Virus record (IMG/VR): IMGVR_UViG_3300031673_000130
Coordinates: 1-43,611 of that record
Direction: 5' to 3' (one strand)
DNA length: 43,611 bases
Origin: a virus
The notes beneath the pieces are model-generated. The model was not told the DNA's origin, made no database searches, and saw only the letters and a program-made list of their open reading frames with translations. How positions within the stretch are numbered: position 1 is the first letter of the stretch; each line of letters opens with the position of its first letter. Position numbers and translations under genes: made by a program. This document shows, one piece after another, positions 7,178 to 35,179 of this stretch.

Positions 7178-7178
7178 C

Positions 7179-11038: not shown

Positions 11039-12841
11039 TTAACAAGCAAGAAAACCTGAGAAATAGCTTAGTACAAAAATATCAAGCTGCGCCGCTCCGC
11101 CGCCTTGCCAAACGGCAAGATAGGCGGTGTCGTTGGCGTCCATGTCAACTAAAAGAGCCAAATTAATAATCAAATAAGGTAAGTCACCAGTGAATTTAGG
11201 CGAAATAATTCCAACCTTGTAACTACGGTTAGAGGTATATAAGTCGAAGGAAAGAAAGGTTGCGTCGATGTCAACCTGATTCAGATAAATTTGAGCGCTG
11301 AGTTGATAAAGTCCGTCGACCGGTGCCGTGAAAGTGTTGTCTGCGAAATCGCTCCCTTGGTCTATAAGTTCGGTCTCCCATGTTATAGTAACAGCACTGC
11401 CAAGTGCGATATCCGTTTGAGTCGCGTTTTTCGTTACCAGAAAAGCCGTCTGATAAGCATTAGTAACATACCCTCCATCCTTTACAACCGGACCTAAGCC
11501 ACCATCGTCTGAGAGTTTTAAGCCATTGGCGTCTTTTGCCTTGATCTCTCCGATTATAAGTGGGTCTGGAACGTCACCGGTTGCGAGAGTGCATTGTATT
11601 CCTGAGGGGTGCGTGTACCTGTCATGGTTCAAAGGGTTTGCGTCGCCCTTGGCGCCCATGGCGGAGACCGCCTCTGCATCCGCGTATCTGGCATGATGCG
11701 CCGCGGCGACTCCCGCATGACTAGCTATCAAAGCCGGTGCATCCTGGTGAGCTGTAGCGATTCCGGCATGAGAAGCTATCAAGGCGTCTATGGCAACGTC
11801 AATCGTCCCGGTTGGATTGGTGTTTTGAACTACGATTCGAGCGTCAACCTCTGCGTCCGTATATTTGGCGTGGTGAGCGTCATCATCTCCGGCATGGGTG
11901 CTTATCTTTGCGTCACCCCTCAAGTCATTCCAATACTCGCCATGATCATCGTCTGAGAGGCCGTCTAAGCTGTGGTGACTGTGATCTGTGAGGTCCGCGA
12001 GGTTGTGGTTGTGGCTTAGAACCGAATAGCGGAGGTCATTGTATCCCCTGTCTCCTACCCCATTCTCATCTGCCGGATCAGTGCATTTTAAAGCCAAGAA
12101 GGTTCCGGCTGCCGCGGTAGTCCCCCCGATGATTATACCGTCAATATTTCCCCCGGTGAGAGCTACGGCATTGGCGTTTTGCGTGACAATGGTCCCGAGG
12201 CCCAGGGTACTTCTTTGAACTTCCGCGTTTGCATCGTCCAGGAGGGCTCTGCCGGCTGCGGTGAGAATTCCTACGGCGTAGACGTCAGGCGCGGTTGTGT
12301 AAAGCATCCGGTCAGCTTCAGTCGTCAGCCCGGCTATGGAGGCAAGACCGGCATCATAGGCTTGAACAGTAGAGCCGATTGTCAGGCCCAGATTCCCCCT
12401 GGCCGTTGCTGCGTTATCGAGATCCGAAAGGTTGCTGGCTATCTTAAGATATGGATCACCAAAGACTTCAGCTTCTCCCAGTGAGTAAGAATCATCGTAA
12501 TACTGGAACTGTACCCGATAGACGTAAACAAGAGCCACAGGGTAAGCGCTTGGAGTCCCGCTAAGAGTATAATTACCGTCCTCATCAAACGTAGCCGTGA
12601 CGATAACACTGCCAGCGGTAACGGCCGACTGGAAGGTAGGCAGGCCTCCAGACATCTGCGAAACAAGCGCATCCACTCCAGCCGACCATTGATCCATAAC
12701 GAACGTTGCTCCTGAGACCGGCGCTCCGACTGTTCCCGTTGTTCCCGAAGCAATACTTTCAAACCAGAGTGCGCGAACATAGATCCCCCCTATCAGTTCT
12801 CTGACGTTTCTTAATAAACTCCACCCTAAACCGCGGCTCAT
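11039..12841 (-). CDS. Tail fibre with C-terminal C1q-like domain (600 aa)
   Basis: The N-terminus (residues 1-130) would attach to the virion. The middle has repeat-rich fibre sequence: GNLGLTIGSTVQAYDAGLAS, then His-rich turns (HNHNLADLTDHSHHSLDG, ASHAGIATAHQ, HHAKYTDAEVDARI) that are typical of trimeric phage fibres. The last 140 residues contain FTAPVDGLYQLSAQIYL, the signature of a C1q/TNF-like trimeric tip, which probably contacts the host surface. The start has AAGGAG ten bases upstream. This is the main host-range determinant visible in the window. Confidence 0.8.
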   Translation of the reverse strand: MSRGLGWSLLRNVRELIGGIYVRALWFESIASGTTGTVGAPVSGATFVMDQWSAGVDALVSQMSGGLPTFQSAVTAGSVIVTATFDEDGNYTLSGTPSAYPVALVYVYRVQFQYYDDSYSLGEAEVFGDPYLKIASNLSDLDNAATARGNLGLTIGSTVQAYDAGLASIAGLTTEADRMLYTTAPDVYAVGILTAAGRALLDDANAEVQRSTLGLGTIVTQNANAVALTGGNIDGIIIGGTTAAAGTFLALKCTDPADENGVGDRGYNDLRYSVLSHNHNLADLTDHSHHSLDGLSDDDHGEYWNDLRGDAKISTHAGDDDAHHAKYTDAEVDARIVVQNTNPTGTIDVAIDALIASHAGIATAHQDAPALIASHAGVAAAHHARYADAEAVSAMGAKGDANPLNHDRYTHPSGIQCTLATGDVPDPLIIGEIKAKDANGLKLSDDGGLGPVVKDGGYVTNAYQTAFLVTKNATQTDIALGSAVTITWETELIDQGSDFADNTFTAPVDGLYQLSAQIYLNQVDIDATFLSFDLYTSNRSYKVGIISPKFTGDLPYLIINLALLVDMDANDTAYLAVWQGGGAAQLDIFVLSYFSGFLAC

Positions 12842-13233: not shown

Positions 13234-16200
13234 CTATTTTCCCCCTTTCATGGCTTCCCGCGCACCTCGTAAGGTGAGCGGTTCTTTTGGTTGTGTAGGT
13301 TCAAATTTGCCTTTCATCCGTGGCGGATTAAACGGAGGAGGCCCCTGGGATCCCTTTGGTTCCTCTTCCATTAATTCCTGTTTTTTATATCTTTGGGTCT
13401 GTTCATAATCCCGGACCATTCTCTCTATCACTACGGCCTTTTCCGCGTTGCTTTGGGATGAGAGGAGGGCCTGTACGTAAGTATGGTTATATTTCCAGGC
13501 CAGAAGTTTTAAGGCGGCGTCAGGTAGAGAATTGGCTTTTGAAGCCAGAGCTTGAACCTCTTCCTTCGAAGGCATTTCACCCTCGAGTAATTTCTCCAGA
13601 CCTTCTCCAGCTGTCAGAGAAATCTCTGCCATAATGCTTTTGACTTCCAGTTTTGCCTCCCGGAGTGTCTCCTGAAGGCCAAGGTCCGTAACCTTGATAA
13701 AACGGCCCACGATGTTGCTGACTATTGGCCATCCCAGGATCTTCTCCAGGTCTGTTTTGATCTGCTCCGGTCTATCGGATCCGAATCGATGAATGACAGA
13801 AAGACCGGCCTGATCACTCAGCCATCTGGCAAAGATTTTATGGGCTCTTTTCCCTCCAGCAAGCATGATCTGTTCAGGAATAACGTACCTACTCCGAAAC
13901 GCATCATAAGGGTTTTTCCCGCAAGCATACGACACGACAGCTCCGATAAGGTTTATCATGGGATGCAGGGTAGGAGCCTGGCCTGCGAGGTAGTCCAGGA
14001 GCGCACTCCACCATTTAAACTTTTCCCTATTGAGTAGTTTCCAGAAAACTCCCCCTATAAGTCGGCCTGTTTCATCTTGGGGTACCCTGAGGACAACCGC
14101 TTTTCCGCTAGGAGTAATGCCAATGGGAACAATGTCATAATTTGTGCCGTCATAGCTTGATACCCGGTCCATAATTTGCTTTGTTTTCCATCCCAGGAAA
14201 CCGAGAGCAGCTCCAAACATCAAGAGTTTTGGCAAAAGGTAATATTTTGCAACCTTCCAGGCGATTTCTGCCGGTCTTTTTCTGGCTACTTCAAAGTCTC
14301 CCCTCCAGCCTTCCTTTTGTGCATTAGAGAAGATCCAGAGGTTATTGTAGATAGGAGCTCCGGTACCTTGCCGCAAGAAGGCAGGGGATCCCGCATTTGC
14401 TCTGATAAAATGGCCCTTTTCTCCTGGAGGCATATCCGGGAAGTGTTTTGACAGATAGATATCAGCTGCAAACTTAGGGATTCGTTCGAGTCCTCTTCCT
14501 AAGCCTGAGAGATAGTAAAAGAACGTATGAAAAGGCATGAAGACCTTTGCCTTCCAGATAGAAGGGATAATATTGAAACGCTTCAACATGCGCTCAAGCA
14601 TGAGATCTTCAGGAGCATCGGCCCTGTAATCAGTAACGGAGATAAGAGTCTTGCTTTTAAATGCCCTCTTTGCGAGTTCATCCACTTGGCCAACGACGCT
14701 CCGGAATGCAGGCTTAATTGCTTGCATGTACGACTTAAAAACGTTTACATAGGACCCTCCAGGTAGGTCCCTGGCTAATCTTCGATAGTCCTTTAGAGCA
14801 TTGTAGGCCATAAAACCCGGATTGAGTTCCGTAAAGACCATTTTGAAGGGCCTCACTGTGATCCGCAGGATCTCTGAAAGGAGCCATGCCTCTACGGGGT
14901 TCTTTTGAAATCCCTCTGCCACATAACGAGGTACATAGTATCCATGGGCCTTGCCATCCACCACATCAACGAGGAGACCTTGCTCCGGATCCTTGGGCTC
15001 CACAATCTTGTGAAACTTTCCGCTCCATTGCGTTTTGGCATCATTGATCTCATCGGGGTAGTAGTCCTTGAAAAATTTCACCACAGCTCTGCTTGCAGCG
15101 ACTCTATTGGCTGCCCTCATCATGGCAATGTCTTTGAGAATCGTGGCCGTGAAAGGTGGACCCGTAGGCCTGAGGGTACCTATTTGCCTAAAGACATGCG
15201 CGGATGCTATCCGTCCAAAGTTCTGATCTGCCCACCCCACAATATCAAACGTGGCATAGTTCGGATTTTCCACCATGAATTTGAGGAGCTCCGGACTGTG
15301 CATTTTGAGCTCCCCGAGTTTATCAATCAGCCATTCTTTCCGGACCGCGTTGAATTCATCGGCCATCTTTTTCACTAAAGGAAACTGATCCTGGAGCTCT
15401 TTAAGTTTTGCGCTCGATAGGTCTGAAGTCCATCCAAGAGGATTTGCAAGTTTCGATCTCTCCGTGGAAACTCTCCGATGATAGAGATAGACATCAAGAT
15501 CTCGAGGAGTGAAGTTTTCCTGTTCAAGAGGAAGAAGGATCCGGTTTTTGATATCCGTCAGATACCCTTCGACCTCTGCTCCTGTATGGATCATTTCCTC
15601 TATCTTGTAGCGAGGATTCAGATGATCCGGAATATTGCTCTCGCCTACCTTTTTGACCCGGTTAATCGTAGCGTAATAACGATCGATGAAGGTCATTGCC
15701 CAGGCGTCTTTATTCAGGATATCTTTCCAGCGACTCTTGATAGTTAAGCCATATTCCCTTTCCCTCTTCTCAAAGCCTTCAATTAAACGCCTGTCTCTCT
15801 TCTCCGGATTTGCTCCAAGTTGGATTTCCCTTTGGATCTGATCATAGATTGCCTTCACCCCAGGTTTCCTCTCCAGGTAATTGAAAAAGCCTTCATACCA
15901 ATTCGGAGCAAGGCTTTTTACCAGCTGAGGAGTATTAATCAAGGCGCTGAAGGCATCGGCGTAGAGTTCGACTCCGCTATACCTGTATTTCGTGAAGGCA
16001 GGGTTTTCTCCGGGATCAAAAGGTTTCCAGGCGCGAGAGAGGAGTTTCAATTCGTTCCTCATTTCATCAGCTTCGAATACCCTCAATTTCCTGATTTCTT
16101 CCGCTACCAGCTGCTCGTAGCGTTCTTTTATCTCAAGATCTGAAGGTTTGTATTTGATCTTTTTACCGGTGGGGACCATCACCACTTTTGCAAATCTCTT

Positions 16201-19200
16201 GATTTCATCGGCAACCTGATCTTTGAGGGCCTGCTTTACGATCGCTTTCTTCAATGCGGTATCAAGACCCTTGATATAATCCTCCAGGTCCTTGTTCTTT
16301 GCCGCAGGATCCAGGGAATTCCAGATATTGAGGACGTCCTGGGGGGAGACCGGGAAAGTCTTCTTGATAACCTGATCGATCATCAAATCTTTATTCTCTG
16401 CCTTGAGCATGAGAATGGCTTGTTTCCGGAGCCGGATCCGGTCCTCAGCTGTAAGTTCACCTGAAACTCCCGGAGCCCTGGGAAGAGTCTGTTTCATGTA
16501 TCGCTTGAGGCTTGCAATTCTACCTAGAATATTACCGCGGCTGAGAGTCTTGTCCGGGAGCCAGTCTGCCAGGTGACCAATCTCATGCGAAAGGACGGCC
16601 GCGGCTTCACCGGGATTCTGGAAGATCTCAGCCATCAATTTGATGCGGGGAACTTCTCCACCATGGTAAAAAGCTCCCCTCCATCCTTTGCCTCTCAATC
16701 TCTTCAGTATTGCCGGATATTTGCCTTTTAAGAGGAATTCCGCAATTTCGACTATCTCCGGCATTTCGATTATCTTGGGTAGGTTTGTCGCATATCCGCC
16801 CACATCGGCGGTACCTCGGGGAGGTTTGAAAATTGGAGGGATCTCATGTTTCACGTGAAATGTGGCATAGCCGCCTACGTCCGCATAGCCGGCCTTACCA
16901 GCCATCTTGATAGCGGGAATATGTTTTTCTCCTGTGTAGGCAAGAGAAGAGAGCATTCCTACAGGTTCGCCTTTAACATAGGCAATCAAAAGAGGAGTCG
17001 CGTCCTTTCCTTCCCCCTTGAACCCTATCTTATAAGTTGCCTCCGGATAACGGTTCCTGATCACGTTAAACTTCAGCATGTCAAAGGCTCGTCTGCGCTT
17101 TCCTACCTTGAAAATAACCTGGTTCCCGACTCCTCTTCCGGTCTCTCCAAGAATAGCAATCGGTTCCTTTGAGATCCCGATATCCCCTTCTGGTGATGTG
17201 GTGGAATAATAGCGCAGACTGGCCGGTTCTTGTCCCGGTACCTCCAGGTGTTCTTTTAGAGCCTCCCACGTAACAACTCTCCCAGGTAACATGCGGGTAT
17301 GCGGAGGCGTCCCTTTCACTGCTAGATGACCATCCGTAAACCATCCCTTACCGCCGTCTTCAATCTCGAAAAGTTCTCCTACCAGTTCTCTCTTGCCGGC
17401 TGAGGGTTTAGGCAGGGATGCCTTTGTGGGTTTTCTTCTGGCTTTGAGAAACGGTGCGCCTAGACCTTTTATGGCCTTCTTGAAGGCCTCCAGATCTTGT
17501 TTTATGGCCGTAGTCCCCAAGGTTGGAACTATATAGGTGGTACCTGAAGGAAGGACAAATTTTACTTTCCCTTGTGGTTTTTCCATATCGTGAAGCATTT
17601 CCGGAGCATTTCTTATGGCTTCGTCAACGGCCTCTCTGAGCAATTCTTCTTGTTCTTTAAGACTAAGTTTCTCGTCTGGCCTGATATGAAAGACCTGCGC
17701 GAATTCGGGGGCTTCTTCGGGTTCTTCTTCGGTTTTTCCTTTAGTGACTTCAGGGGGAAGTTCTTTAGGCTTTTCCAGTCCTGGCCTTCTCAATCCGGTT
17801 GCCTTTGTCAAACGTCCTATTTCACCGCCAATGCCTCTTACGGTCTCTTCAGTAACGTCTTTGATTGCCCAGGATCCCCCGGCTGCAATGGCTTCACGTT
17901 TGGCAAGGAAACTCTTGTAGTAAGGATCGTCTTTTCCCACGGTCTCCGCCATGCGCGCGAGGGACTTATCCATTCTGGCAAGAACAGCCTTCCTTTCCTC
18001 TTCTGTGGGAGGAGGACCTTGACCCTCAGATCTGGCTTGCCGCAAAGCTGCCCCTTGAGCTTCCTGGAAGGTAGCCTTTGCCATGATAGCTCTATTAAAC
18101 ACGCTCCAATATGGACCCTCTCCATACATTACGGGGAGATTTCGCCACTCTTGCATGGTCACGTCCCAGGGTTCTTTTTGTTTCTCAGCTTCTACTTTAG
18201 GAATTTCTGGCGCTTTTAGGAGTTTGGTAGGAACTTCGGGGGTAGGACCTGCTCCTGGACTTGAGGGTAATCTTTGTTCGGTGGGTTGTTTAATTTTATC
18301 TGCGGGGCGTAGATGTGGCACCTTAACCGGCGGTACAACCTTATGACCTTCCTGCTCCTTGATAACCTTGAGGATGGAGTCAAAATATTCTTCGAGTTCT
18401 TTTCCATCTTCTATCGTTTCGTATTTATAGGTTTTAATGAGATCATCGGCTATTTCATCGGCAACCGTAATCTTCATCTTCCTTATGATGTCAACCTTTA
18501 CGTCATTATTCTTGATCTTAGTGAGGTACTTGTCAAGCTCTTTAGGGTCAACCTCCCGGTCACTGATACGTTGATATATTGATCCAGTGAACTCCTCTTC
18601 TGGCAAAGCTAATATGTCGGCGTACTTTTCGTTGATCCGTTTATCAACGAGGGTCAAGGGGTCTTCGTACTGTTTTCTGGTGATAGCGATGATATCACGA
18701 GCGGGAGGGACTTTTGGGACTCCCTTTAATCCTGGCCCTTCACCACCTTCAATTTGCCTCCCGGTGGAAGTGACTTTAGCCACTCCAGGAGGCTCTTCCC
18801 CCCTGGCTGCCCTGAAACCTGCTTTTTCGCGTTCAACTTTAGCTCTTCTAAGCTGTTCTTCCGCACCTGGTTTTGTTTCGCCAAGTCCATAGGTAATTTC
18901 CACTCCTTTCTTGGTGTATTTCGTTCCATCCGGGGCAGTATATTCCAGGGTTACATTTTCAAGAGATTTACTGGCGCTCTCAATGGCTTGTTCAACGGTC
19001 GCCCTGTCTGGTCCTTGAATGATAAATTCATCCCCACTCATCCGATAAGATAGATGTTTGGCTCCTTTTGTGGGTTTAATCGCTTTTGCAATAGCCTGTA
19101 AGACCTGATCGCCAACATCATGCCCCAGGTTATCATTGATCCATTTTAAAGAATCGGCATCGACATACGCCTGATGTGGCATACGTTCGTCTTCTATATC

Positions 19201-20514
19201 AAATGCTCTTCTATTGCGAAGGCCGGTGAGTTCGTCAGTCAGAAGAATCTCTTGTTGTTCTTCCGGTGTCATTTGCGCGATCTTTTTCCGGAATGCAAGA
19301 TCAGCCCTTCGCTCAGGGCCTTTATAGATTTCGGGTGCTCCTAATTCGATAGGCGGGAGAGGCTCTTCGGGTCCTTTACCCCTTACTGGAGGAGGCTGTA
19401 GAGCTTCTGGAGGGCCTCCTGGAGCATAAGGCTTAGGAGGACCTGGAGGAGGACCATAAACAGGGCCTTGGGGAGTTTCAGGAGGTGGCGCATAGGGGCC
19501 TCTACGTTTTTGGATTTCTTCCGCTCTGAATTTATAAAACTGCTCGGGGTTGCCTCGTAATGCCTTGAGAATTTGAGCATCGGTAAGTCCGCGGCGTTTC
19601 ATATCCTCAATGGTCTGGACTACTAGACCGCGTTCTTTATTTGTAATCTGCCTCCACCAGGTTGAATCTTTGATTAGTTGTCCGATAGGTTTATCAAGCC
19701 ATGGGATTTTCTTGAGCAAGGGGACGGCAATATCTCCGGCCAATTTGAAGGCTGCTGGAGCAAGGGCCCACCCTGCGGTTTCCCCTAAGATCTGAAGACG
19801 TTTTTCCTCTATGCTTGAGCGGTTCCATTCTTCCCGGTCAGTTTCAGAGGCTAGGAATTGACCTCCAGGGATCAGGCTTGCCGCTGCATAACGCATACTC
19901 ATCAAGGTTGGATACCGCTGAAACATTGCCTGCTCTTCTTCCTTGCTCATTTTGTACTTACCCAGGAAGTCCGCGATTGCTTCAAAAGGCTTCTGAAGGT
20001 AGCCGATACCTGCCGGGAGTTCTCCGAATAAGGCATCATGAGCAATCTTGCCGGCGATCTTGATACTTTCCGGGACTTTCTTTGGAAACTCAGGGCCGGT
20101 TACTTCAGGCCTACCTAGATATTCCGGGATCTCTTGAGGAGGGCCTTCCGGACGTTCAAAAATCGGTCCTTTCTTCAGGGATACGCCTGGCTCTAGTCCT
20201 TCTATGCCTTGAAAGGGTCCTGGTTCATATTGAGGGGCCTCTCGGGGTGCTCCGAATTTACCGAACTCGCCCGGGATCTCCTCGCGTTCTCTCATCCGCT
20301 CGAGACGGCCAGGGATCCGCTGCGCTTCTATCGGAATTTGCTTTTCTCCGATGAAGTCATTTTTGAGGGTTTCTTGTTCCTCCGGAGCGAGGGCCTCATA
20401 GTCCGGATCTGGCTCGAGAAAGGTAGTAAAAAAGTCATTCCGGATATCCCATTGTTCCCCCGGATCCCTTGCTTGAAATGATGGGGATTCTTCTATCTCA
20501 GCCCAATTTTCCAT
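13234..20514 (-). CDS. Giant polyvalent ejection-like protein with GGDEF and zincin domains (2426 aa)
   Basis: At 2,426 residues this is a sixth of the genome. Residues 1-330 are helical with Pro-rich stretches; 335-400 is a Pro/Gly linker. Residues about 405-590 form a GGDEF domain: TDELTGLRNRR (426-436), D452, D454, K457, N460 and D469 in the DADSLKWIND...GHDVGD block, then SGDEF (493-497). D469, a position linked to GTP specificity, is retained. HEIGH at 1310-1314, with E1516 in GVELYADAF as a possible third ligand, marks a zincin peptidase. The C-terminus (LNPGFMAYNALKDYRR near 1894) resembles LPD38-type polyvalent-protein regions, with a hydrophobic segment near 2088-2112. Following two smaller internal-virion-like genes, it is probably carried in the head and ejected with DNA. 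Confidence 0.85.
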   Translation of the reverse strand: MENWAEIEESPSFQARDPGEQWDIRNDFFTTFLEPDPDYEALAPEEQETLKNDFIGEKQIPIEAQRIPGRLERMREREEIPGEFGKFGAPREAPQYEPGPFQGIEGLEPGVSLKKGPIFERPEGPPQEIPEYLGRPEVTGPEFPKKVPESIKIAGKIAHDALFGELPAGIGYLQKPFEAIADFLGKYKMSKEEEQAMFQRYPTLMSMRYAAASLIPGGQFLASETDREEWNRSSIEEKRLQILGETAGWALAPAAFKLAGDIAVPLLKKIPWLDKPIGQLIKDSTWWRQITNKERGLVVQTIEDMKRRGLTDAQILKALRGNPEQFYKFRAEEIQKRRGPYAPPPETPQGPVYGPPPGPPKPYAPGGPPEALQPPPVRGKGPEEPLPPIELGAPEIYKGPERRADLAFRKKIAQMTPEEQQEILLTDELTGLRNRRAFDIEDERMPHQAYVDADSLKWINDNLGHDVGDQVLQAIAKAIKPTKGAKHLSYRMSGDEFIIQGPDRATVEQAIESASKSLENVTLEYTAPDGTKYTKKGVEITYGLGETKPGAEEQLRRAKVEREKAGFRAARGEEPPGVAKVTSTGRQIEGGEGPGLKGVPKVPPARDIIAITRKQYEDPLTLVDKRINEKYADILALPEEEFTGSIYQRISDREVDPKELDKYLTKIKNNDVKVDIIRKMKITVADEIADDLIKTYKYETIEDGKELEEYFDSILKVIKEQEGHKVVPPVKVPHLRPADKIKQPTEQRLPSSPGAGPTPEVPTKLLKAPEIPKVEAEKQKEPWDVTMQEWRNLPVMYGEGPYWSVFNRAIMAKATFQEAQGAALRQARSEGQGPPPTEEERKAVLARMDKSLARMAETVGKDDPYYKSFLAKREAIAAGGSWAIKDVTEETVRGIGGEIGRLTKATGLRRPGLEKPKELPPEVTKGKTEEEPEEAPEFAQVFHIRPDEKLSLKEQEELLREAVDEAIRNAPEMLHDMEKPQGKVKFVLPSGTTYIVPTLGTTAIKQDLEAFKKAIKGLGAPFLKARRKPTKASLPKPSAGKRELVGELFEIEDGGKGWFTDGHLAVKGTPPHTRMLPGRVVTWEALKEHLEVPGQEPASLRYYSTTSPEGDIGISKEPIAILGETGRGVGNQVIFKVGKRRRAFDMLKFNVIRNRYPEATYKIGFKGEGKDATPLLIAYVKGEPVGMLSSLAYTGEKHIPAIKMAGKAGYADVGGYATFHVKHEIPPIFKPPRGTADVGGYATNLPKIIEMPEIVEIAEFLLKGKYPAILKRLRGKGWRGAFYHGGEVPRIKLMAEIFQNPGEAAAVLSHEIGHLADWLPDKTLSRGNILGRIASLKRYMKQTLPRAPGVSGELTAEDRIRLRKQAILMLKAENKDLMIDQVIKKTFPVSPQDVLNIWNSLDPAAKNKDLEDYIKGLDTALKKAIVKQALKDQVADEIKRFAKVVMVPTGKKIKYKPSDLEIKERYEQLVAEEIRKLRVFEADEMRNELKLLSRAWKPFDPGENPAFTKYRYSGVELYADAFSALINTPQLVKSLAPNWYEGFFNYLERKPGVKAIYDQIQREIQLGANPEKRDRRLIEGFEKREREYGLTIKSRWKDILNKDAWAMTFIDRYYATINRVKKVGESNIPDHLNPRYKIEEMIHTGAEVEGYLTDIKNRILLPLEQENFTPRDLDVYLYHRRVSTERSKLANPLGWTSDLSSAKLKELQDQFPLVKKMADEFNAVRKEWLIDKLGELKMHSPELLKFMVENPNYATFDIVGWADQNFGRIASAHVFRQIGTLRPTGPPFTATILKDIAMMRAANRVAASRAVVKFFKDYYPDEINDAKTQWSGKFHKIVEPKDPEQGLLVDVVDGKAHGYYVPRYVAEGFQKNPVEAWLLSEILRITVRPFKMVFTELNPGFMAYNALKDYRRLARDLPGGSYVNVFKSYMQAIKPAFRSVVGQVDELAKRAFKSKTLISVTDYRADAPEDLMLERMLKRFNIIPSIWKAKVFMPFHTFFYYLSGLGRGLERIPKFAADIYLSKHFPDMPPGEKGHFIRANAGSPAFLRQGTGAPIYNNLWIFSNAQKEGWRGDFEVARKRPAEIAWKVAKYYLLPKLLMFGAALGFLGWKTKQIMDRVSSYDGTNYDIVPIGITPSGKAVVLRVPQDETGRLIGGVFWKLLNREKFKWWSALLDYLAGQAPTLHPMINLIGAVVSYACGKNPYDAFRSRYVIPEQIMLAGGKRAHKIFARWLSDQAGLSVIHRFGSDRPEQIKTDLEKILGWPIVSNIVGRFIKVTDLGLQETLREAKLEVKSIMAEISLTAGEGLEKLLEGEMPSKEEVQALASKANSLPDAALKLLAWKYNHTYVQALLSSQSNAEKAVVIERMVRDYEQTQRYKKQELMEEEPKGSQGPPPFNPPRMKGKFEPTQPKEPLTLRGAREAMKGGK
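16786..16884 (-). repeat. Duplicated ADVGGYAT coding segment
   Basis: Within the giant gene a 24-bp segment encoding ADVGGYAT occurs twice, at 16861-16884 and 16786-16809, matching at 19 of 24 bases. The differences are scattered, several at third positions, so the copies are diverging under protein-level constraint. The spacer encodes FHVKHEIPPIFKPPRGT and contains the parS-like palindrome. Confidence 0.6.
16847..16862. promoter_or_regulatory. parS-like palindrome inside the giant gene
   Basis: TGTTTCACGTGAAATG matches the well-known chromosomal parS consensus (TGTTTCACGTGAAACA) at 14 of 16 positions and includes the full 12-bp palindrome TTTCACGTGAAA. ParB proteins recognise this site. In the coding frame it specifies FHVKH. 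A chance 14/16 match in 43.6 kb is unlikely, but binding is unproven. Confidence 0.45.
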
Positions 20515-21453
20515 CTATAAACCCCATTTTGACTTGAAGGACTCCAGGTTGCCTTTACCCACAGCTCCTTTTTTCTCAGCTGGAAGGAACTGCTCCCAGT
20601 AGCGTTTTTCCCTATCAAAGCCGGCAATGAGTTGGCGTTTTAGCTTTGGATCCATCTTTTGTCCGATCATGCCTTGAAGCTCCGGGCTCCTCTCCGCAAT
20701 AAGCGCGCTTATGATGTCTGTCTTTTCCAGGGTAGCGATCTTGGTATTGATGTCATTGATTCGTTTGTGTGCTCCTTCTACTTTCCCCGTAGCTTCTTTG
20801 CCGATCGTTCGTGCCTCTCCGCGTTCTGCTCGTGCCTCTCCGCGTTGGCCTCTTTCTTCTGTGGCCAGTTTAAAGGTGAGATCCTGCATCCGCTTTAGTT
20901 TCGTCTCGTATTCCTTTTTGTCATTGTCAAACTTGGTCATAAAAAAGTTGTGGACTTCTTTCATTTTTTCGCGTTTATCCTTTGCCTCGTTGAAAGTGTC
21001 CGCATGGTATTTCTTTACAACCCAGTCCCAATGCTCTTTTTGCTGCTTAGAGAGTTTGTTCCGGTCTGACCATACAACCTCTCCATCAAAGGCAAAGTTG
21101 AAAAGGTCCGGGAGGTTCGCGTCTGCTTTTTTCAATTCTTCATGTGGGTCAAATTCGAACCACTTTCCTCCAGCCTCTTTGAAAGCAAATTGCTCAAAAG
21201 CATCGCGGTTAGAGTAATCCGGAGGTTTATACCCTTCTGGAGGTTTTCCACCTATAGCAAGAGCTCCTTCTTTTGATGCCGGCGCTTGCCTTCCCCCTCC
21301 TTCAGGTGAAGCTAAAAAAGGATTCTCTCCATAGACTCCTGTTTGCCACTTTCCTTCAGGGATTTTCTCTATGTCAAAGGGCTCATGAAGAGGATTGTAA
21401 GTGTCTTCCTCTTCCCATTCCGCAGAACCGGTAGGATCCTGATATCTAGGCAT
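20515..21453 (-). CDS. Internal-virion-like protein with long coiled coil (312 aa)
   Basis: The product has an acidic, Pro/Gly-rich N-terminus (residues 1-85) and a helical region (residues 120-260) rich in Lys, Glu and Arg, including the repeated turn EERGQRGEARAERGEAR. No enzyme motif is seen. It lies between a smaller Gly/Ala-rich gene and the 2,426-residue protein; in P22- and T7-like phages this run of three genes encodes proteins stored in the head and ejected to form a DNA channel. The stop codon is immediately followed by the next ATG (TAGATG), implying coupled translation. Confidence 0.7.
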   Translation of the reverse strand: MPRYQDPTGSAEWEEEDTYNPLHEPFDIEKIPEGKWQTGVYGENPFLASPEGGGRQAPASKEGALAIGGKPPEGYKPPDYSNRDAFEQFAFKEAGGKWFEFDPHEELKKADANLPDLFNFAFDGEVVWSDRNKLSKQQKEHWDWVVKKYHADTFNEAKDKREKMKEVHNFFMTKFDNDKKEYETKLKRMQDLTFKLATEERGQRGEARAERGEARTIGKEATGKVEGAHKRINDINTKIATLEKTDIISALIAERSPELQGMIGQKMDPKLKRQLIAGFDREKRYWEQFLPAEKKGAVGKGNLESFKSKWGL

Positions 21454-21470: not shown

Positions 21471-22181
21471 CTATCCATACTTCAACTCCGTTGTTGCTGT
21501 CTTAGTCGCGCTTGCCAAGTAAGCCTGCATTGCCGCGTTGTATTTCGCCATCATTGCGGAAACATCGGTCCCATGCTGCATTTGCGCGGCCTGGAATTCT
21601 TTCCCGTACTTCTCACCATACTCGCCCCTGGCCTGCTGAGAAGCTCCGGCCATGACTCCTTCGAGTCCTAATCCGTAGCCTGCTAGGGCCTGCCTCAAGG
21701 TCATGCGTTTTACATTGGGATTCTCGTACTGTTTGGACATAGCCGCCTGGACTGCCTGGCGCAATCTACGCACTCCCGGAGCTGCTGCTTTATGCGTGAG
21801 TTTTCTGACCTCACTTTCGGAGTACTCCGGTGCATTAAATTGAGGGGTTGCACCCATTTCAGGCATAGCTCCTGAAAATCCCGATGTCGTTGTGGTTGTG
21901 CTGCCTACCGGTGCAAGCCGATACGAGGAAACTGTTCTGATTCCGCTTTCTCTTTCTTGTCCTGGCGCCGCAACTGCTGTCTTTTTCGGTTCTTCTCCAT
22001 AGCCGCTGTATTTGTAGCTTGGAGAAAACATACTGAAAGAGCTTCCAGGAGAAACCGGTGATACTCCCTGGCTTGCAGGCATAGGGTAAAGATCCCCTTC
22101 GGATTGACTTAGGGGATATCCCTCTTCTTCCTCATAAAAAGGACTATACGGATCATCTTTTGTGTAATCATATGCAGCCAT
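21471..22181 (-). CDS. Internal-virion-like Ala/Gly-rich protein (236 aa)
   Basis: The start follows AAAAGGAGACTGGT. Residues 1-110 are low-complexity, with acidic Tyr-rich blocks (YDYTKDDPYSPFYEEEEG) and Ser/Thr runs. Residues 125-230 are Ala-rich helix (LRQALAGYGLGLEGVMAGAS, then MMAKYNAAMQAYLASATK). This resembles the small ejection proteins of short-tailed phages in composition and position, but homology cannot be claimed by eye. It is the first of a three-gene run ending in the giant protein. Confidence 0.65.
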   Translation of the reverse strand: MAAYDYTKDDPYSPFYEEEEGYPLSQSEGDLYPMPASQGVSPVSPGSSFSMFSPSYKYSGYGEEPKKTAVAAPGQERESGIRTVSSYRLAPVGSTTTTTSGFSGAMPEMGATPQFNAPEYSESEVRKLTHKAAAPGVRRLRQAVQAAMSKQYENPNVKRMTLRQALAGYGLGLEGVMAGASQQARGEYGEKYGKEFQAAQMQHGTDVSAMMAKYNAAMQAYLASATKTATTELKYG

Positions 22182-24168: not shown

Positions 24169-26598
24169 TTACCTCCTTTCCCATACCGACATATTTACTC
24201 CTAGCTCCTCCAGGTACATTTCCTGGCTGGCCGTGTCATGCTGTAACTTGATGCTAATGAGTTGATCCTGGATATTTACGGAAAGCCTGTGGCGCCGTAT
24301 CAGTTGATTTGTGACCTCAGCCACCATGCTCAGGGTCTTGTCTGTGATGAATGCTATTCCGTTTTTGCTTATAGAAAGTTTGATGCTTCCAGCTGCTTGC
24401 GTCTTGCACCGGATCAGTAACTCCCGGAGGCTCAAATATTGGCCGCCTAAGCTAAATTCTTGTTGTGTGTAGGAGTCAATGGCGGTGCTCACATCATTGG
24501 TCCCGTAGTTTAGCTGATAAACCGTACCATCCGCGGTGCCTCCTCCAACCTGGAGGACCGGGACGTTCCCGGAGGCCGCTTCCACTTCTTCTATGCATGA
24601 GAGTGCTTGTCCAAGGACATCAAAGGACCAGGTCTTGTCCAGGAGATCAAAAACCGGGAATACATTCGGGACTGTGGCGGACGATCCGCTGACCAGGCCG
24701 ATCCGGATCACGTTAAATGTGGAGTCATACTTGAGCCACATCTCTGACTCATAACCGCGCCTGATACATTCCGTCTTTGTAGGATCAAAGTAGTTCTGAA
24801 TATCATCACTGATCAGGGACACACTCCTTCCATCACTGACAAAAACACCATGCCTCGATAGGAAGAAAAACAGATCTTTGATTTGCTCTTGATCCCCGAG
24901 CCGGACCAGAACTCCATCGACCACAGCCACGGTTTTATTATTCATCGTGCCGATCCTGGAGGAGAGAACCAGTTTCCCGAAGGTTTCAGGGGAGTATCCT
25001 TCAAAGAGGGTTACGGTCCCCCCTTCAACCCCTTTTTCTTCCTGCCATACGACCATTTCATTGTGGAATTTACGGATTGCGACAGTCTTATGAGCCCTCC
25101 CATCACCAGTTTCCAGGACGCCAAAATCCAGGCCGTTAAGAACCATCGGCTGACCGGTAGCAGAGACATAGAGATATTCAGGATAGAGATTGAAGCTAAG
25201 AACCGCTCTGTCTTTCCAGATACAGTTACATCGGCCCTTTCCGAGCTCTTCAACATCGAAATAAGGCATGGTCTGAATGCCAAGGATGATATCCGCGGAC
25301 AGGGTTTTATCCACTGTGAAGTAGTAGACATAGGCGTAATATTGAGAGGATCTGAACTGGTGCGGTTGTGCGGCTTTTCTGTCAAAACTGACCCATCCGG
25401 CGTTTGAAAGGCCGTTTGTTCCATCGGTCAAAGTGCCTACGGAAGCGAAAGCAGCTCCGTTCCAGTAATACCCTGCGTTGACGGTTGTTGATGCCGTACT
25501 GTTAGGATCCGGGCCCACGTCTATGTAAACAGCCTCGATGGGATCCGCGGATAGGATGATAAGTTTGTCTGAGGAGGTCATTTCCCCGACTTCTACCGAT
25601 CCGGAAGCGTAAAGATCGTAAGTGCCGGCTGAATCGTCATAAAAATAGCATTCGACCGCATCTGCCGGAACTCCATCCCACACATTCATGATATCCTGGA
25701 AAGAAGAGTCGAAAGTGACTCCAGATAGCTCTACCTCGCCGTCCAGTGCTGCTGAGAATCGTATTTGATACCAGTACCCCACTCCTCCATAGGCATATTT
25801 AGGTATGATGTCTGTGGGCTTGGGCTCTGTGAAGGACATCTTCCCCCCGGTTGTAGCTAGGGACGCCCCTCCTGAAGCAGTAGTATCTCCGAATCCGGAG
25901 ACCGCAGTCCAAGCTCCATTGTGATAGTAAATCGAGGCGTCTGAAGCGCTCCCGTTTGGCTTAGGTATGGTGAAGGTGAAAGACTTGGCAGGGACCGGGG
26001 TCTTGATCATCAAACAGTCATGATTTGCATAGGTATCCAGTAAGTCCAGGACCGCTACTGTGGAGGTCTGGCCATCGGAGACCTGATCTGAATAGTCTTC
26101 TCCCTCTGTAGGTACCGCAGGCATGGCCGCGGTACCCTTAAAGACAATGAACTTCTCAACGTAACTCGAGGATCCACCGTAGATTTGATGCTGATCGACT
26201 CCGTCAGAGAAAATCAACTTGTCGGCAATGTTGCCCCAGGCCGCGGGGATCTGGCCGGCGCTCCCGGAATAAACTTCAGATCCGAAGGCTCCGGTTGTGA
26301 CTCCCGGAGGATCCGCGGTAGCTTTGAGGATATCCCCATCCGACATCTGAGCGAAAAAGGCCTCTTCTGATACACGACCTTTCTTGAGCTGATAAAGGGA
26401 AAGGACCTTGTTGGTAGGACCATCAGCCTCAGTATGGAGTTTCCTCTGACCAGGCCTCTTGATAATTCCGGGATGCTTCCCCCTCATATTCTGGACCATG
26501 GAGAAGGCTCCAAACGGCAATGATGCCTTTTCCCGGACAGTAACGGCGCTTCCCTGGAGAGGAATTCCTTTGATCTCTGTCAGTTGTTTCAGTGCCAT
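24169..26598 (-). CDS. Tail nozzle/DNA-stabilisation-like protein (809 aa)
   Basis: The opening (GIPLQGSAVTVREKASLPFG, then MRGKHPGIIKRPGQRKL) and length suit the beta-propeller tail-nozzle proteins of short-tailed phages, such as P22 gp10-type and T7 gp12-type proteins. The middle contains repeated Gly/Asp/Thr-rich beta strands, and the C-terminal third has propeller-like blades (GVFVSDGRSVSLISDDIQNYF). It follows the adaptor gene, as expected for the tail built under the portal. Its ATG lies directly after the adaptor stop (TAAATG). The assignment rests on order, size and style rather than a catalytic motif. Confidence 0.6.
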   Translation of the reverse strand: MALKQLTEIKGIPLQGSAVTVREKASLPFGAFSMVQNMRGKHPGIIKRPGQRKLHTEADGPTNKVLSLYQLKKGRVSEEAFFAQMSDGDILKATADPPGVTTGAFGSEVYSGSAGQIPAAWGNIADKLIFSDGVDQHQIYGGSSSYVEKFIVFKGTAAMPAVPTEGEDYSDQVSDGQTSTVAVLDLLDTYANHDCLMIKTPVPAKSFTFTIPKPNGSASDASIYYHNGAWTAVSGFGDTTASGGASLATTGGKMSFTEPKPTDIIPKYAYGGVGYWYQIRFSAALDGEVELSGVTFDSSFQDIMNVWDGVPADAVECYFYDDSAGTYDLYASGSVEVGEMTSSDKLIILSADPIEAVYIDVGPDPNSTASTTVNAGYYWNGAAFASVGTLTDGTNGLSNAGWVSFDRKAAQPHQFRSSQYYAYVYYFTVDKTLSADIILGIQTMPYFDVEELGKGRCNCIWKDRAVLSFNLYPEYLYVSATGQPMVLNGLDFGVLETGDGRAHKTVAIRKFHNEMVVWQEEKGVEGGTVTLFEGYSPETFGKLVLSSRIGTMNNKTVAVVDGVLVRLGDQEQIKDLFFFLSRHGVFVSDGRSVSLISDDIQNYFDPTKTECIRRGYESEMWLKYDSTFNVIRIGLVSGSSATVPNVFPVFDLLDKTWSFDVLGQALSCIEEVEAASGNVPVLQVGGGTADGTVYQLNYGTNDVSTAIDSYTQQEFSLGGQYLSLRELLIRCKTQAAGSIKLSISKNGIAFITDKTLSMVAEVTNQLIRRHRLSVNIQDQLISIKLQHDTASQEMYLEELGVNMSVWERR

Positions 26599-27468
26599 TT
26601 ATAAGATCCCCGCATTGACGTCTATGGACATATCAAAATCCTCGTAGAGCTCTTCCACATCGATATCTTGAGGAGGTCCGGCATAACCCTTTATTGCCTC
26701 CCGGAAAAGATCGATCCATTCCTTATACTCAGCGGAATTTGGTGTGACCTGGCTTATTGGGTGGGTTCTTGTGAGAATTACGGCAAGAGGAGCTATCAGC
26801 TGCCTAAACTCCACGGGGATCTCCGGCACCAGGCCATAATAACTCCCTTCATCGGCACCTACGGCGCTAATGGAAGCAACTCGAGCCGCGGTATAGTCCG
26901 TAATCGTCCCGGTCCAGTCGTCAGTGACGTCCTCGATCTCCATGTTATTGTAATAATCGGCTATCTTCTTGGCATAGGTAGAGTCCAGGACTGCGCTTGT
27001 CGCTGCAACACAGGTTCCAAAGGCTCCAGAATGAATATCGCGGCATCTTCGGTGATACCAGAGGGTGTAAGTATCGGTGCATGAGGCCTTTTCAATAACC
27101 AGAGTGCGGCCTTGTCTTCTGTAAAGACGATCGTTGCCGACAGCCTCAGTGAGTCTGGTTTGATCAATGCCGATAGGATAGCACTTCCGGCCGGCGCTAT
27201 TCTTCAGGATCCTGAGCCGACCGAAATCGGAGGGAAGTGTGAGGACAGAATCAACCGCGGTTAGATCTTCGCTATCGAGAAACTCCTCGGGGATCCTCTC
27301 CAACAGAAGGGCATAGATAAACTGGAGAGCTTTGTTGATCTTCCTTAGCAGGTTTGCATTGCTCCAGGCCCCGCTCGTATCGGTTCCCTGCACATACGCG
27401 TCACTGAATTCATTAAGATCTTCCCGGACCTCTGAAAGGATCTCGTAAGCATTGTTATATGTTCCCAT
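26599..27468 (-). CDS. Head-tail adaptor, gp4-type (289 aa)
   Basis: The sequence begins AYEILSEVREDLNEFSD and includes WSNANLLRKINKALQFIYALLLERIPEEF, then YTLWYHRRCRDIH and VPEIPVEFRQLIAPLAVIL. This layout (an N-terminal helix pair, a mixed middle and the EFRQLI helix near the end) recalls P22 gp4 and T7 gp11-like adaptors that join portal to nozzle. The position directly before the nozzle-like gene agrees. No catalytic residues are apparent. Confidence 0.6.
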   Translation of the reverse strand: MGTYNNAYEILSEVREDLNEFSDAYVQGTDTSGAWSNANLLRKINKALQFIYALLLERIPEEFLDSEDLTAVDSVLTLPSDFGRLRILKNSAGRKCYPIGIDQTRLTEAVGNDRLYRRQGRTLVIEKASCTDTYTLWYHRRCRDIHSGAFGTCVAATSAVLDSTYAKKIADYYNNMEIEDVTDDWTGTITDYTAARVASISAVGADEGSYYGLVPEIPVEFRQLIAPLAVILTRTHPISQVTPNSAEYKEWIDLFREAIKGYAGPPQDIDVEELYEDFDMSIDVNAGIL

Positions 27469-30236: not shown

Positions 30237-31556
30237 CTAGCTCCAGAGACTCGGTTCGACCAGGTCCTTTAGGACCGTGAGGCAATTCCTCTGCTCTACT
30301 CCCAGGTTGGAATAAAGCCTCAAGAACTGATCCCACTCGTCATAACCAGATCTCCAGTGCATTTGCTGATCCAAGTTCCCCCATCCGATAGCTGCCATTT
30401 CATACTTCTGAATGACTCCGGACGGCTCGAAATACATCTTGTTCGGCTGCGCCACAGGATCTACAACGATCTCTACGGATCCGTCACCCGCGGCAAAGGT
30501 TAAGGTCTCATATCCCCCCCGGAGCTTCGTGGGTGCAAACCGGACGTCCGGCATGAGGAGGTTGGCATACTTTCTGCGCTGGCCAAGACCACACCTGATG
30601 ATGTTCGCTCTCATTCCTGAAGCCGCTCGGGTCAGATCGCAGGCCTGGAGCATGAGCTCCACGGTCAGCTCTCTGTTCACGCTCGAGTTGCCAAGAACGT
30701 TTGCTTTCCACTTGGGATAGGTATCGACAACGATATTCTCAAACGTAGCTATGAGAGTTCCATCATCGTAAATGCCGTCAAGACCGCAGATCTCGTAGGA
30801 GTCGTTGGTTGTTGCATGACTGGCCGCTCGGGTACCCATCTTGACCATATACGCACCGGTAGGAACTGCCTCGGCGACTATAGTATAGCCGGCAAAGGTG
30901 CTGTTCGGGTGGTTGGTCTTGTAGGTCCCATCGTTGAACTCCATTTCCATTGCTTTGGTTGAAGGGTTGATGCTGGAGATCCTCGAGGCCACTGAGGACT
31001 GATCCACAGCGGTACTATCGAAGAAATCAACCAGCATTCCCTCCTGGGCATACATAACCCCCCTGTCGTTGTCGCAGGTGACTGTCCAGGTGGTTGCCGA
31101 TGTGGTGAGCGTATCTGACGCAGCTGAGAGAGTCCCGATCAAGCCGAATCCGTCACCCCAGGTCTGTCTATTCAGATCCACAATCATGCTCTGATAGATG
31201 TCGTCTACCGCATCGGCCAGGCCATCCACAAACGCGGCCATATCTCCCTTAGCCGCTTCGATCATGGGGCCTGTCATGCGGATAACGCCATAGATATACT
31301 TGGGACTGATCCGGCCTTTGTCGTACTTCCCAACCAAAGGATCCGGGAGCTTCTGGCTTTCGCCGCGGGCTCCGGTACCTTGCGCCCTTGCATATCGGAT
31401 AGAGAACTCATATCCCAGGCCTTTAGGCTGTCTTTCGCTCTTCGGGAACTGGTGATATGTGAGAGTCTCATCCTTGAACTGATTCGTGATCCCTTTGCCG
31501 TAAACCAGCTTCAGGGTGTCCGCTATTGCGGTTAAGTCGTGATAATCAATAGTCAT
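30237..31556 (-). CDS. Major capsid protein, HK97-fold-like (439 aa)
   Basis: The start at 31556 follows GGAGGATTAAACC. The N-terminal arm (IADTLKLVYGKGITNQFKDE), an early basic loop (GARGESQKLPDPLVGKY), a helix (PMIEAAKGDMAAFVDGL) and a long beta-rich insert are followed by TRAASGMRANIIRCGLGQRR and a C-terminal GNLDQQMHWRSGYDEWDQF. Size and order (portal, scaffold-like protein, then this gene) identify it as the coat protein. It lacks an obvious cleavage site or protease gene, so assembly likely depends on the separate scaffold. Confidence 0.8.
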   Translation of the reverse strand: MTIDYHDLTAIADTLKLVYGKGITNQFKDETLTYHQFPKSERQPKGLGYEFSIRYARAQGTGARGESQKLPDPLVGKYDKGRISPKYIYGVIRMTGPMIEAAKGDMAAFVDGLADAVDDIYQSMIVDLNRQTWGDGFGLIGTLSAASDTLTTSATTWTVTCDNDRGVMYAQEGMLVDFFDSTAVDQSSVASRISSINPSTKAMEMEFNDGTYKTNHPNSTFAGYTIVAEAVPTGAYMVKMGTRAASHATTNDSYEICGLDGIYDDGTLIATFENIVVDTYPKWKANVLGNSSVNRELTVELMLQACDLTRAASGMRANIIRCGLGQRRKYANLLMPDVRFAPTKLRGGYETLTFAAGDGSVEIVVDPVAQPNKMYFEPSGVIQKYEMAAIGWGNLDQQMHWRSGYDEWDQFLRLYSNLGVEQRNCLTVLKDLVEPSLWS

Positions 31557-31585
31557 TGGTTTAATCCTCCGCAATGAGCGAGAGG

Positions 31586-32863: not shown

Positions 32864-33085
32864 TCATTTATTTGGTCCCTTATAGTTAGAGGGGTCCCTG
32901 TGTGCCTTCTTTACCGCTCTATTGCGTCCCAGGCCCCCCATGCACCGCTGCCAGGCCTCATCCTTGCTAAACCCTTTCTTGAGATATTCGATCACACATT
33001 GATGAGCTCTCAGCGTGTGGATCCCTTTACCATCCGGAGCCGTTAAGCCGGCCTTCCTATACGCTTGTTTGATTCGCTTGCCCAC
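32864..33085 (-). CDS. Small late protein after portal (73 aa)
   Basis: A GTG at 33085 with AGGAGG upstream is chosen over a GTG at 33112 that lacks a ribosome binding site; the gene overlaps the portal end by 29 bases. The product (LTAPDGKGIHTLRAHQCVIEYLKKGFSKDEAWQRC) has one helix pair and a basic tail (AVKKAHRDPSNYKGPNK). No family is recognised. Confidence 0.55.
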   Translation of the reverse strand: MGKRIKQAYRKAGLTAPDGKGIHTLRAHQCVIEYLKKGFSKDEAWQRCMGGLGRNRAVKKAHRDPSNYKGPNK

Positions 33086-35093
33086 CTGGAGCCCCTCCTC
33101 TCGTTGTTTCACCGGCCTCGGCCTGATCTCTGGTCATTGCCATTCCACCTTGGGCCTGCATCTTTGCCTGGATAAACATGAAATGGGTGTCTGTATGTAA
33201 GAGTGTTATGGCCTGGGCTTTGGTAGTAAGTTTGCCGAATTCAGGACTGACAATGAATTTGCGGTGGATCTCGAAATGAATGATATGATCGTCATACTTG
33301 AAAAGCGGATCGTCATTTTGACGCTCTTGCAGGATACTTGCCGGGTTTTCTGGATCCGCTTTGAGAACGAGAATTCCCTCAACGTCCCCCATCTTAAGCC
33401 GGGTATTTTCGAGTTCTGCTCTTTTCACGTCCGGGGAAGTCTTGTCTTTGAATCCTGACAGACCAACTCTTCTGAGGATCTCCATTCTCGTATCCACATC
33501 GTTCTGAAGATCCGGGAAAAGGCCTTGTTCGATCAGATTGATAATTGTTTGCGTCTTGCCGGCCTTTGTGGATCCCACACCTGAATCTAACTCGAGTCGA
33601 ACGTCTGTATTGCCTCTCAGCTGTGCGGCTCTAAAGGCCTTGACCTGGACATCGGAGCCTAGATTTCCGGTCTTGATCATTCTCTCTTCTGTGAAGAGAA
33701 GGGATGCCAGAATAAGGCGCTTTCTGTAAACGCGCTGATAGCTGCGATAGATCCGGGCGATATCGGGTCCATGGCCGGCCTCAGCTGCTTCCTTGAGGAT
33801 ATCGACCATGATCCCGGAGGCTCTTGCTGTGGGTGTTCTTCCCCGCAGGATATTCTTGGGATCCCCGGAGAGATCCTGGATTGTCTCGCGGTGTATGGAG
33901 CGTTCCTTGATCACCTGGTCCGGTAGTGCTATCCCCTGCTGAAACTCAGGCCGGAGCCCAGCGGCCATAAGCGCGTCATATTGCAGTACAAGGAAATGAG
34001 ATCCCTGCTCACTGAGTCTCTTGATCTTGACGTCTGAGGGTGAAAGGACTCGAGTTCTTCCCAGGCCCTTGCGGTTTATGTTGAGGGATTGATCGATTTC
34101 GTTGATAGAGTTCTGAGGGGAGATAAGATCATTGACGCCTGGATCACTCCAGAACCTTCCGGGGACGTAATTGTAATGAAAGTCAGTTAGGCTATAGAAC
34201 CATTTCCCGTTTTCCGCAGGGATAGGCATTTGCTTTGCGTCAACCATGATGGTATCGCCACACTGCGCGACATAACGGCCGTCAGGGTTCGTTTTGGTAG
34301 GTTTGAACTCCGCTTCTTTGAAGACCACCAGATCCTCAGCCTTCATATTGAGAATGCGCGTCTCGAGGCCGGATCCTTTCCAGGGACTCACGTTAGCAAC
34401 CAGGTCCATGAGCATCTGCTGATAATTGATAATGGCCGGATCATCCCCTCCGCTTATCTTTTTGTGGAAGGTATCTTCAACCCACTCCCGGTACTTGAGA
34501 CTCTTCATGGCCACGTAACGTTTACGCTTCAGTCCTTCACCCAGGGGATCCACGATGATATTGAAAGGGATCCATGTCTCAGTGGCGACATCTCCTTCTG
34601 TGATCAACTTCCCGGAAGCATCAAGAAACCATTCACCTCCATCCTTCTCCGCGAAGGTTCTGAGAAAGCCGACACCACACAAGAGGACCCACAGGAGGAC
34701 TCTTTCCTTTTCATCCAGGAAGATAGCCTCATTATCCAGGTCCATTGAGGAGAGAAGATCCGCGCCTAACTCGGAAGATTCTCGGTCCTCCTCGGAGTTA
34801 CTGTTTGGCCAGACTCTAGGAACATAGTTCTTACCCAGGATCAGAGCTTTCATGCTCCGGACGTACTCCCGGATAATGTTGTCGACCGGCGTAGGTTTGA
34901 AGGGGGATCTCCGCGTCTTCTTACGGAAAACGTTCAAAGATACAACCCACTCGAGGTATTGTTCGCCGATGTAATAGAGGATATTGCGGTACCACACCCT
35001 TTCCATCATCTTGCGGATAGGATCCCGGCCTTCATCGAAGATGTGAGTCATTTGCCGCTGTGCGTCCCATTCGTGAAAGTATTTATCTGCCAT
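33057..35093 (-). CDS. Portal protein (678 aa)
   Basis: The start at 35093 follows AGAGGAATTGC. The sequence has the portal traits: an N-terminal stem (RNILYYIGEQYLEWV), VDNIIREYVRSMKALILGKN, WIPFNIIVDPLGEG, GRFWSDPGVNDLISPQNSINE and a long helical C-terminus (IARIYRSYQRVYRKRLILASL). Length and style match P22-type portals of short-tailed phages. It forms the dodecameric DNA gate in the capsid vertex and docks terminase. Immediately upstream is the 10-bp repeat array and terminator region, so this gene begins a separate transcription unit. Confidence 0.85.
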   Translation of the reverse strand: MADKYFHEWDAQRQMTHIFDEGRDPIRKMMERVWYRNILYYIGEQYLEWVVSLNVFRKKTRRSPFKPTPVDNIIREYVRSMKALILGKNYVPRVWPNSNSEEDRESSELGADLLSSMDLDNEAIFLDEKERVLLWVLLCGVGFLRTFAEKDGGEWFLDASGKLITEGDVATETWIPFNIIVDPLGEGLKRKRYVAMKSLKYREWVEDTFHKKISGGDDPAIINYQQMLMDLVANVSPWKGSGLETRILNMKAEDLVVFKEAEFKPTKTNPDGRYVAQCGDTIMVDAKQMPIPAENGKWFYSLTDFHYNYVPGRFWSDPGVNDLISPQNSINEIDQSLNINRKGLGRTRVLSPSDVKIKRLSEQGSHFLVLQYDALMAAGLRPEFQQGIALPDQVIKERSIHRETIQDLSGDPKNILRGRTPTARASGIMVDILKEAAEAGHGPDIARIYRSYQRVYRKRLILASLLFTEERMIKTGNLGSDVQVKAFRAAQLRGNTDVRLELDSGVGSTKAGKTQTIINLIEQGLFPDLQNDVDTRMEILRRVGLSGFKDKTSPDVKRAELENTRLKMGDVEGILVLKADPENPASILQERQNDDPLFKYDDHIIHFEIHRKFIVSPEFGKLTTKAQAITLLHTDTHFMFIQAKMQAQGGMAMTRDQAEAGETTRGGAPGGQANQTSV

Positions 35094-35109
35094 TGCAATT
35101 CCTCTTCTG

Positions 35110-35179
35110 TTTGATCCGGTGTGATCCGGTCTGATACGATCTGACACGTTTTGACACGGTCTGACACCGTTTGTATGAC
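35110..35179. repeat. Seven-unit 10-bp tandem array upstream of portal
   Basis: Units TTTGATCCGG, TGTGATCCGG, TCTGATACGA, TCTGACACGT, TTTGACACGG, TCTGACACCG and TTTGTATGAC follow each other without a gap. Spacing is exactly 10 bp, one helical turn, so equal faces of DNA are presented. The array starts 17 bp upstream of the portal ATG, ahead of its ribosome binding site. It is non-coding in the minus-strand gene direction and has no known match in memory. A multi-site operator, a packaging or origin site are all possible. Confidence 0.7.

Follow-up and report, generated by a model that had tools for sequence, protein, structure and literature searches.

A GGDEF domain of a distinct phage clade within a giant, predicted virion-delivered protein

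Gene content of the locus

We analyzed a linear virus record from IMG/VR, 43,611 bases long (the window). Its structural genes all lie on the minus strand, in the order terminase, portal, head, adaptor-like, nozzle-like, small genes, giant open reading frame (ORF), small gene and tail fibre.

36035..37780 (-), terminase large subunit
33057..35147 (-), P22-type portal protein
30237..31574 (-), major head protein
26599..27468 (-), protein resembling SU10-type head-tail adaptors, slightly below the Pfam cut-off
24169..26598 (-), 809-aa nozzle-like protein, named by position
21471..22181 (-), 236-aa gene, possible companion ejection protein by position only
20515..21453 (-), 312-aa gene just upstream of the giant ORF, likewise a possible companion ejection protein by position only
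13234..20514 (-), giant ORF (P0001), 2,426 aa, predicted virion-delivered polyvalent-type protein that carries the GGDEF domain
11039..12841 (-), tail fibre protein, downstream of the giant ORF

The reading frame of the giant ORF is open throughout, with no internal stop, and its start codon abuts the stop codon of the gene upstream. GGDEF is the sole Pfam domain, known LPDs included, to score above cut-off in it. As to catalytic domains, GGDEF is certain, and a possible zincin is indicated by a HEIGH motif that recurs in homologues, with Pfam M48 below cut-off.

Elsewhere in the window, a tyrosine integrase is encoded at 7143-8246 (+) (phrog_1, E=6e-58), and the phage is therefore probably temperate. 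Neither an EAL or PilZ gene nor a tRNA gene was found in the window. The gene at 40427-41392 (-) contains a TDPPYG motif and resembles, by eye, a DNA adenine methyltransferase gene; in the early region, 3603-5186 (+) and 2731-3591 (+) look by eye like genes for a RecT-type annealing protein and a nuclease.

The GGDEF domain and its active site

The following features were located in and around the domain.

18745..19302 (-), GGDEF domain as modelled, residues 405-590, of the phage clade described below
18871..19239 (-), core Pfam PF00990 match, residues 426-548
19132..19164 (-), VDADSLKWIND motif, from residue 451, with the clade signature DSLKW
19024..19038 (-), SGDEF active-site loop, residues 493-497
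18838..18840 (-), K559, equivalent to PleD K442, invariant in 36/36 clade members
18784..18831 (-), clade-specific C-terminal motif REKAGFRAARGEEPPG

A preliminary description, made from the sequence alone, had placed a diguanylate cyclase domain at 18745-19302, which corresponds exactly to residues 405-590. The motifs that it listed are found at their sites (TDELTGLRNRR from residue 426, GHDVGD from 464, SGDEF from 493), and D452, N460 and D469 are present as it reported. It had named a profile match and a comparison with PleD-type structures as checks, and both supported the assignment. The giant ORF matched Pfam GGDEF with E=5.5e-17 (62.4 bits versus a cut-off of 23.8) and TIGR00254 with 53.1 bits (cut-off 37.4), and phmmer aligned it with the solved cyclases SadC, PleD, DgcB and WspR. 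An AlphaFold model of the domain, built with 36 sequences, reached a pLDDT of 91.2 and a pTM of 0.85. Foldseek matched this model to WspR, SadC, DgcB and PleD in the PDB (E about 1e-9, probability 1.00); the top matches were all diguanylate cyclases, with moderate TM-scores of about 0.5-0.65. The window domain is a genuine GGDEF fold in which the catalytic and guanine-contact residues are retained.

For residue equivalences, we relied on the phmmer alignment and on a PleD numbering that we take to be established. PleD D327, D329, K332 and N335 then correspond to D452, D454, K457 and N460 of the window protein, D344 to D469 and K442 to K559. The window domain has D452, K457, N460, D469, D495, E496 and K559. 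Across the 36 aligned clade members, the equivalents of PleD D327, D329, K332, N335, G369, E370 (as D), E371, F372 and K442 are invariant, and this holds in relatives down to 35% identity with the window domain. Close clade pairs are under purifying selection, with dN/dS of 0.02-0.26 where both rates could be estimated (some pairs were saturated); the most divergent estimable pair gave 0.35.

The serine in place of the first glycine of GGDEF, to which the preliminary description had drawn attention, is present but not unusual, as it is the rule in the clade (S in 28, G in 6 and A in 2 of the 36 members). An SGDEF loop can be active, since the SGDEF domain of MbaA supports cyclic di-GMP synthesis (PMC8079147). 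The D344 equivalent is D in 32 members, N in 3, T in 1 and S in none. The earlier view that D469 sets the domain apart from the Ser-substituted Hypr type therefore stands, and Hypr/cGAMP specificity of the window domain was rejected on the basis of this residue. Because N or T is found there in 4/36 members, guanine specificity may vary within the clade. The RxxD product-inhibition site (I-site) is absent from all 36 members, including the window domain. Given the conserved active site and the active SGDEF domain of MbaA, the window domain looks catalytically competent, of the guanine type and free of product inhibition.

A phage clade of GGDEF domains

A profile search of IMG/VR recovered at least 39 loci with related domains, mostly within ORFs of about 1,000-4,400 aa, and tblastn against phage records added standalone proteins of Yuavirus and Vojvodinavirus (for example YuA gp44). 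These domains share DSLKW[IV]N (in one case DSLKYLN), usually SGDEF, and a C-terminal RAxRGExPP motif. A clade HMM gave 107-233 bits for the four genome-derived members and less than 58 bits for other GGDEF domains. In a tree of 70 sequences, made with a quick method and with a comparison set of 30 ordinary GGDEF sequences only, a branch with an SH-aLRT value of 100 separated the 40 clade members from the 30 ordinary domains. The rows nearest the window domain were L013, L007, L008 and L012. As judged from sequence, the window domain belongs to a distinct phage GGDEF clade.

Members are rare among prokaryote genomes. A motif scan of 84,980 species genomes yielded only 4 confirmed loci, and in a profile search of 399 genomes of one group, in which the best candidates (at most 8 per genome) were scored, only the seed exceeded 100 bits and the rest reached 77 or less. 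Because the DSLKW motif served as the main seed for membership, intermediates lacking it may be missed in these counts. Plasmid matches were rejected as clade members, being ordinary, weaker cyclases (66 bits for the best listed). One subgroup (L026, L027, L029) has LTGIKGRKAF instead of the NRR start and NDNLSPDHGD for GHxxGD, with the catalytic core kept.

Gene position and companion domains

The giant ORF lies between the nozzle-like and tail-fibre genes of a P22-portal-type late operon, the same position as in L013, L026 and L029. In these three relatives, the GGDEF ORF follows the tail-tube genes phrog_394 and phrog_376 and precedes the tail fibre gene. Tail-tube genes also occur in L023 and L043, and internal virion or DNA-ejection PHROGs lie near the GGDEF ORF in L015, L031 and L039. 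By analogy, the slot between tail-nozzle or tube genes and tail-fibre genes in several relatives is the slot of T7 gp16.

Companion domains in the GGDEF-bearing giant ORFs include InPase, ART-PolyVal, RadC, GNAT, AAA_34 helicase and LPD22/23/38. InPase, a phage-type inorganic pyrophosphatase, is found in 11 GGDEF-bearing ORFs (L007, L008, L015, L016, L017, L020, L022, L024, L028, L039 and L041), often within 300 residues of the GGDEF domain. Functional coupling of the two was considered and is not claimed, because InPase is simply common: only 1/80 InPase loci has a GGDEF domain. In the podovirus-like L023 (8840-15886), the giant protein looks as though it had been divided into separate genes, with a GGDEF protein of just 637 aa and, after it, two ORFs (872 and 844 aa) that overlap or adjoin.

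A shared chassis with different cargo

Searching IMG/VR with P0001 or A3 gave no close homologue over the whole length of the giant ORF; relatives of parts of it (chassis siblings) were recovered through sub-alignments, and delimit these regions.

19393..20052 (-), N-terminal chassis, residues 155-374, common to L160/L161 and L165, all without GGDEF
16828..19392 (-), predicted exchangeable cargo region, residues about 375-1229, which holds the GGDEF domain and is unmatched in the chassis siblings
13387..16827 (-), C-terminal chassis, residues 1230-2376, common to L160/L161, L162, L163 and Baldr gp20
16573..16587 (-), HEIGH zincin-like metallopeptidase motif, residues 1310-1314, Pfam M48 below cut-off

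In sub-profile scans, L160/L161 (2,506 aa) matched P0001 at residues 155-374 and 1230-2376, the latter with about 49% identity, L162 (1,802 aa) matched the C-terminal chassis, and L165 the N-terminal chassis only. In L163 (4,412 aa), the C-terminal chassis is preceded by ddrB-ParB, RadC and MTS domains. Gp20 of Pelagibacter phage Baldr, whose gene is directly before the tail fibre gene, matched residues 1230-2323 with 26% identity over about 1,070 aa. Upstream of its giant, L161 also encodes a protein homologous to the 809-aa nozzle-like one, and two downstream window genes likewise have homologues in L161. The HExxH motif is retained in L160/L161, L162 and Baldr, and is no longer invariant once L163 is added.

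No GGDEF domain was found in the siblings L160/L161, L162, L163 and L165. Since these carry other cargo, residues about 375-1229 form, on the evidence of the alignments, an exchangeable slot, and the GGDEF domain is a swappable cargo module on a shared chassis. The corresponding cargo of L160/L161 (residues about 335-1350) has no Pfam match and contains repeated segments (EPWEMT, VPPEVL.DYPDL); this region possibly holds unrecognized effector domains.

Comparison with known systems

Polyvalent proteins were defined by Iyer et al. (2017), who noted that some of them contain GGDEF domains, which they called "not very widespread", and who proposed interference with the nucleotide responses of the host as the role of such domains (PMC5512222). 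This bears out the preliminary description, which had stated that GGDEF-like modules are known in these proteins. Their examples include WP_004096050, encoded by a prophage of Acetonema longum, in which GGDEF is combined with SNF2, methylase, zincin and ART domains. P1 DdrB is a virion protein (PMC5512222). The window ORF is similarly a giant phage ORF near virion genes with a GGDEF domain and a zincin-like motif, and its homologous chassis sibling L163 has ddrB-ParB, RadC and MTS. It differs in that its chassis is shared with a podovirus protein located before the tail fibre. The giants found here fit the polyvalent kind by size, location and companion domains. As GGDEF-bearing polyvalent proteins have already been proposed, the window ORF adds a further member. 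In the open-access full-text literature (most subscription papers being outside this scope), we found no test of any polyvalent GGDEF domain and no description of the clade; three features may be new to the literature, namely the signature of the clade, the placement in the gp16 slot and the exchange of cargo.

YuA gp44 and its counterparts in Bordetella phages FP1/CN1 (Yuavirus and Vojvodinavirus) belong to the same clade, with DSLKW and RAARG motifs and 37-42% domain identity. Unlike the window domain, they are standalone, unfused proteins of about 156 aa encoded outside the virion operon, so that the domain does not always imply delivery. PleD, WspR, SadC and DgcB share the fold and catalytic residues with the window domain, which differs from them by SGDEF, the absence of an I-site, a shorter NRR-to-DxD segment, the clade-specific C-terminal motif and the lack of a recognized sensory domain.

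With T7 gp16-type proteins and Baldr gp20, the window ORF shares the gene position before the tail fibre, and Baldr gp20 is homologous to the C-terminal chassis. However, a search of PDB sequences with P0001 detected no similarity to solved ejection proteins, including T7 gp16. The GGDEF domain is in the N-terminal half, and no transglycosylase was recognized. The structure model of the chassis (pLDDT 43) was too poor for a fold comparison with gp16. A transglycosylase suspected by eye in Baldr gp20 had no profile or PDB support.

Proposed function and alternatives

We infer, with somewhat better than even confidence in both delivery and activity, that the giant ORF encodes a virion-delivered cyclic di-GMP synthase. 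The domain and its fold, the active-site conservation, the clade, the gene position and the shared chassis with different cargo, as computed here, are consistent with the following scheme. The protein would be carried in the virion of a tailed, podovirus-like phage and serve as a delivery protein of the polyvalent type. Its N- and C-terminal chassis, with the zincin-like motif, would be packaged in the head and exit with the DNA, the central cargo slot being loaded with a compact diguanylate cyclase of the phage-specific clade. In the host, GGDEF modules of neighbouring subunits would pair, bind two GTP and yield cyclic di-GMP and PPi. T7 gp16 is ejected, is hexameric after ejection and has a presumed cytoplasmic hub (PMC8954989); oligomerization of this kind would, by analogy, provide the pairing that cyclases require. 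Because the I-site is missing, cyclic di-GMP would be made without feedback inhibition, and host signalling would be shifted before phage gene expression. Against delivery of a cyclase speak the lack of sequence similarity to solved ejection proteins and the lack of EAL or PilZ genes in the window.

The protein might be delivered as proposed and yet make a different or mixed product (cGAMP or linear pppGpG) or act on host immune nucleotide signalling. The distance of the clade from ordinary GGDEF domains, the N or T at the D344 position in a few members and the suggested interference with host nucleotide responses (PMC5512222) favour this, but the window domain keeps both guanine contacts, N460 and D469, without the D-to-S change of the Hypr type, and we consider it unlikely. 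Some GGDEF domains function as receptors, and dimerization would be a prediction here, so that a non-catalytic role as a GTP- or cyclic-nucleotide-binding or assembly module (a receptor or sponge) can also be imagined. The invariance of the metal, phosphate and GGDEF-loop core residues in all 36 members speaks against it, as does the I-site, whose general absence removes the product-binding site that a receptor would use; this is the least probable of the explanations, and very improbable.

Alternatively, the protein could be a structural or late one that is not ejected, its GGDEF domain working during lysogeny or in the late phase of infection; lysogenic conversion of this sort has been proposed for YuA gp44 and LK3. 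This would agree with the integrase in the window and with the YuA-type members, whose genes are distinct from the virion genes and carry host-conversion annotations. The GGDEF gene of Bordetella phage LK3 is standalone and of the Vojvodinavirus type, and lysogens of this phage form more biofilm, although a causal link to GGDEF was not tested there (PMC8471281). In the window, however, the domain is fused within a structural-operon ORF, the chassis relatives include a DdrB-type polyvalent protein, and clade relatives occupy the gp16 slot; a role confined to the lysogen or to late infection therefore seems rather improbable to us.

The delivered cyclic di-GMP synthase could be one case of a wider strategy, which we raise tentatively and regard as doubtful. 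Many tailed-phage lineages would then package a feedback-free second-messenger synthase, a phage-only GGDEF clade serving as interchangeable cargo on ejection proteins, and the burst of cyclic dinucleotide at DNA entry would rewire host signalling or outcompete nucleotide-based immunity.

The full active site kept in a phage-restricted clade makes activity directly testable, and the standalone YuA-type members in cultivable Pseudomonas phages offer a starting point for biochemical work. Other delivered phage effectors can be sought by way of the common chassis and its swapped cargo. If the domain is active, what the virion injects would be the second-messenger synthase itself and not its gene, and the enzyme would act before any transcription.
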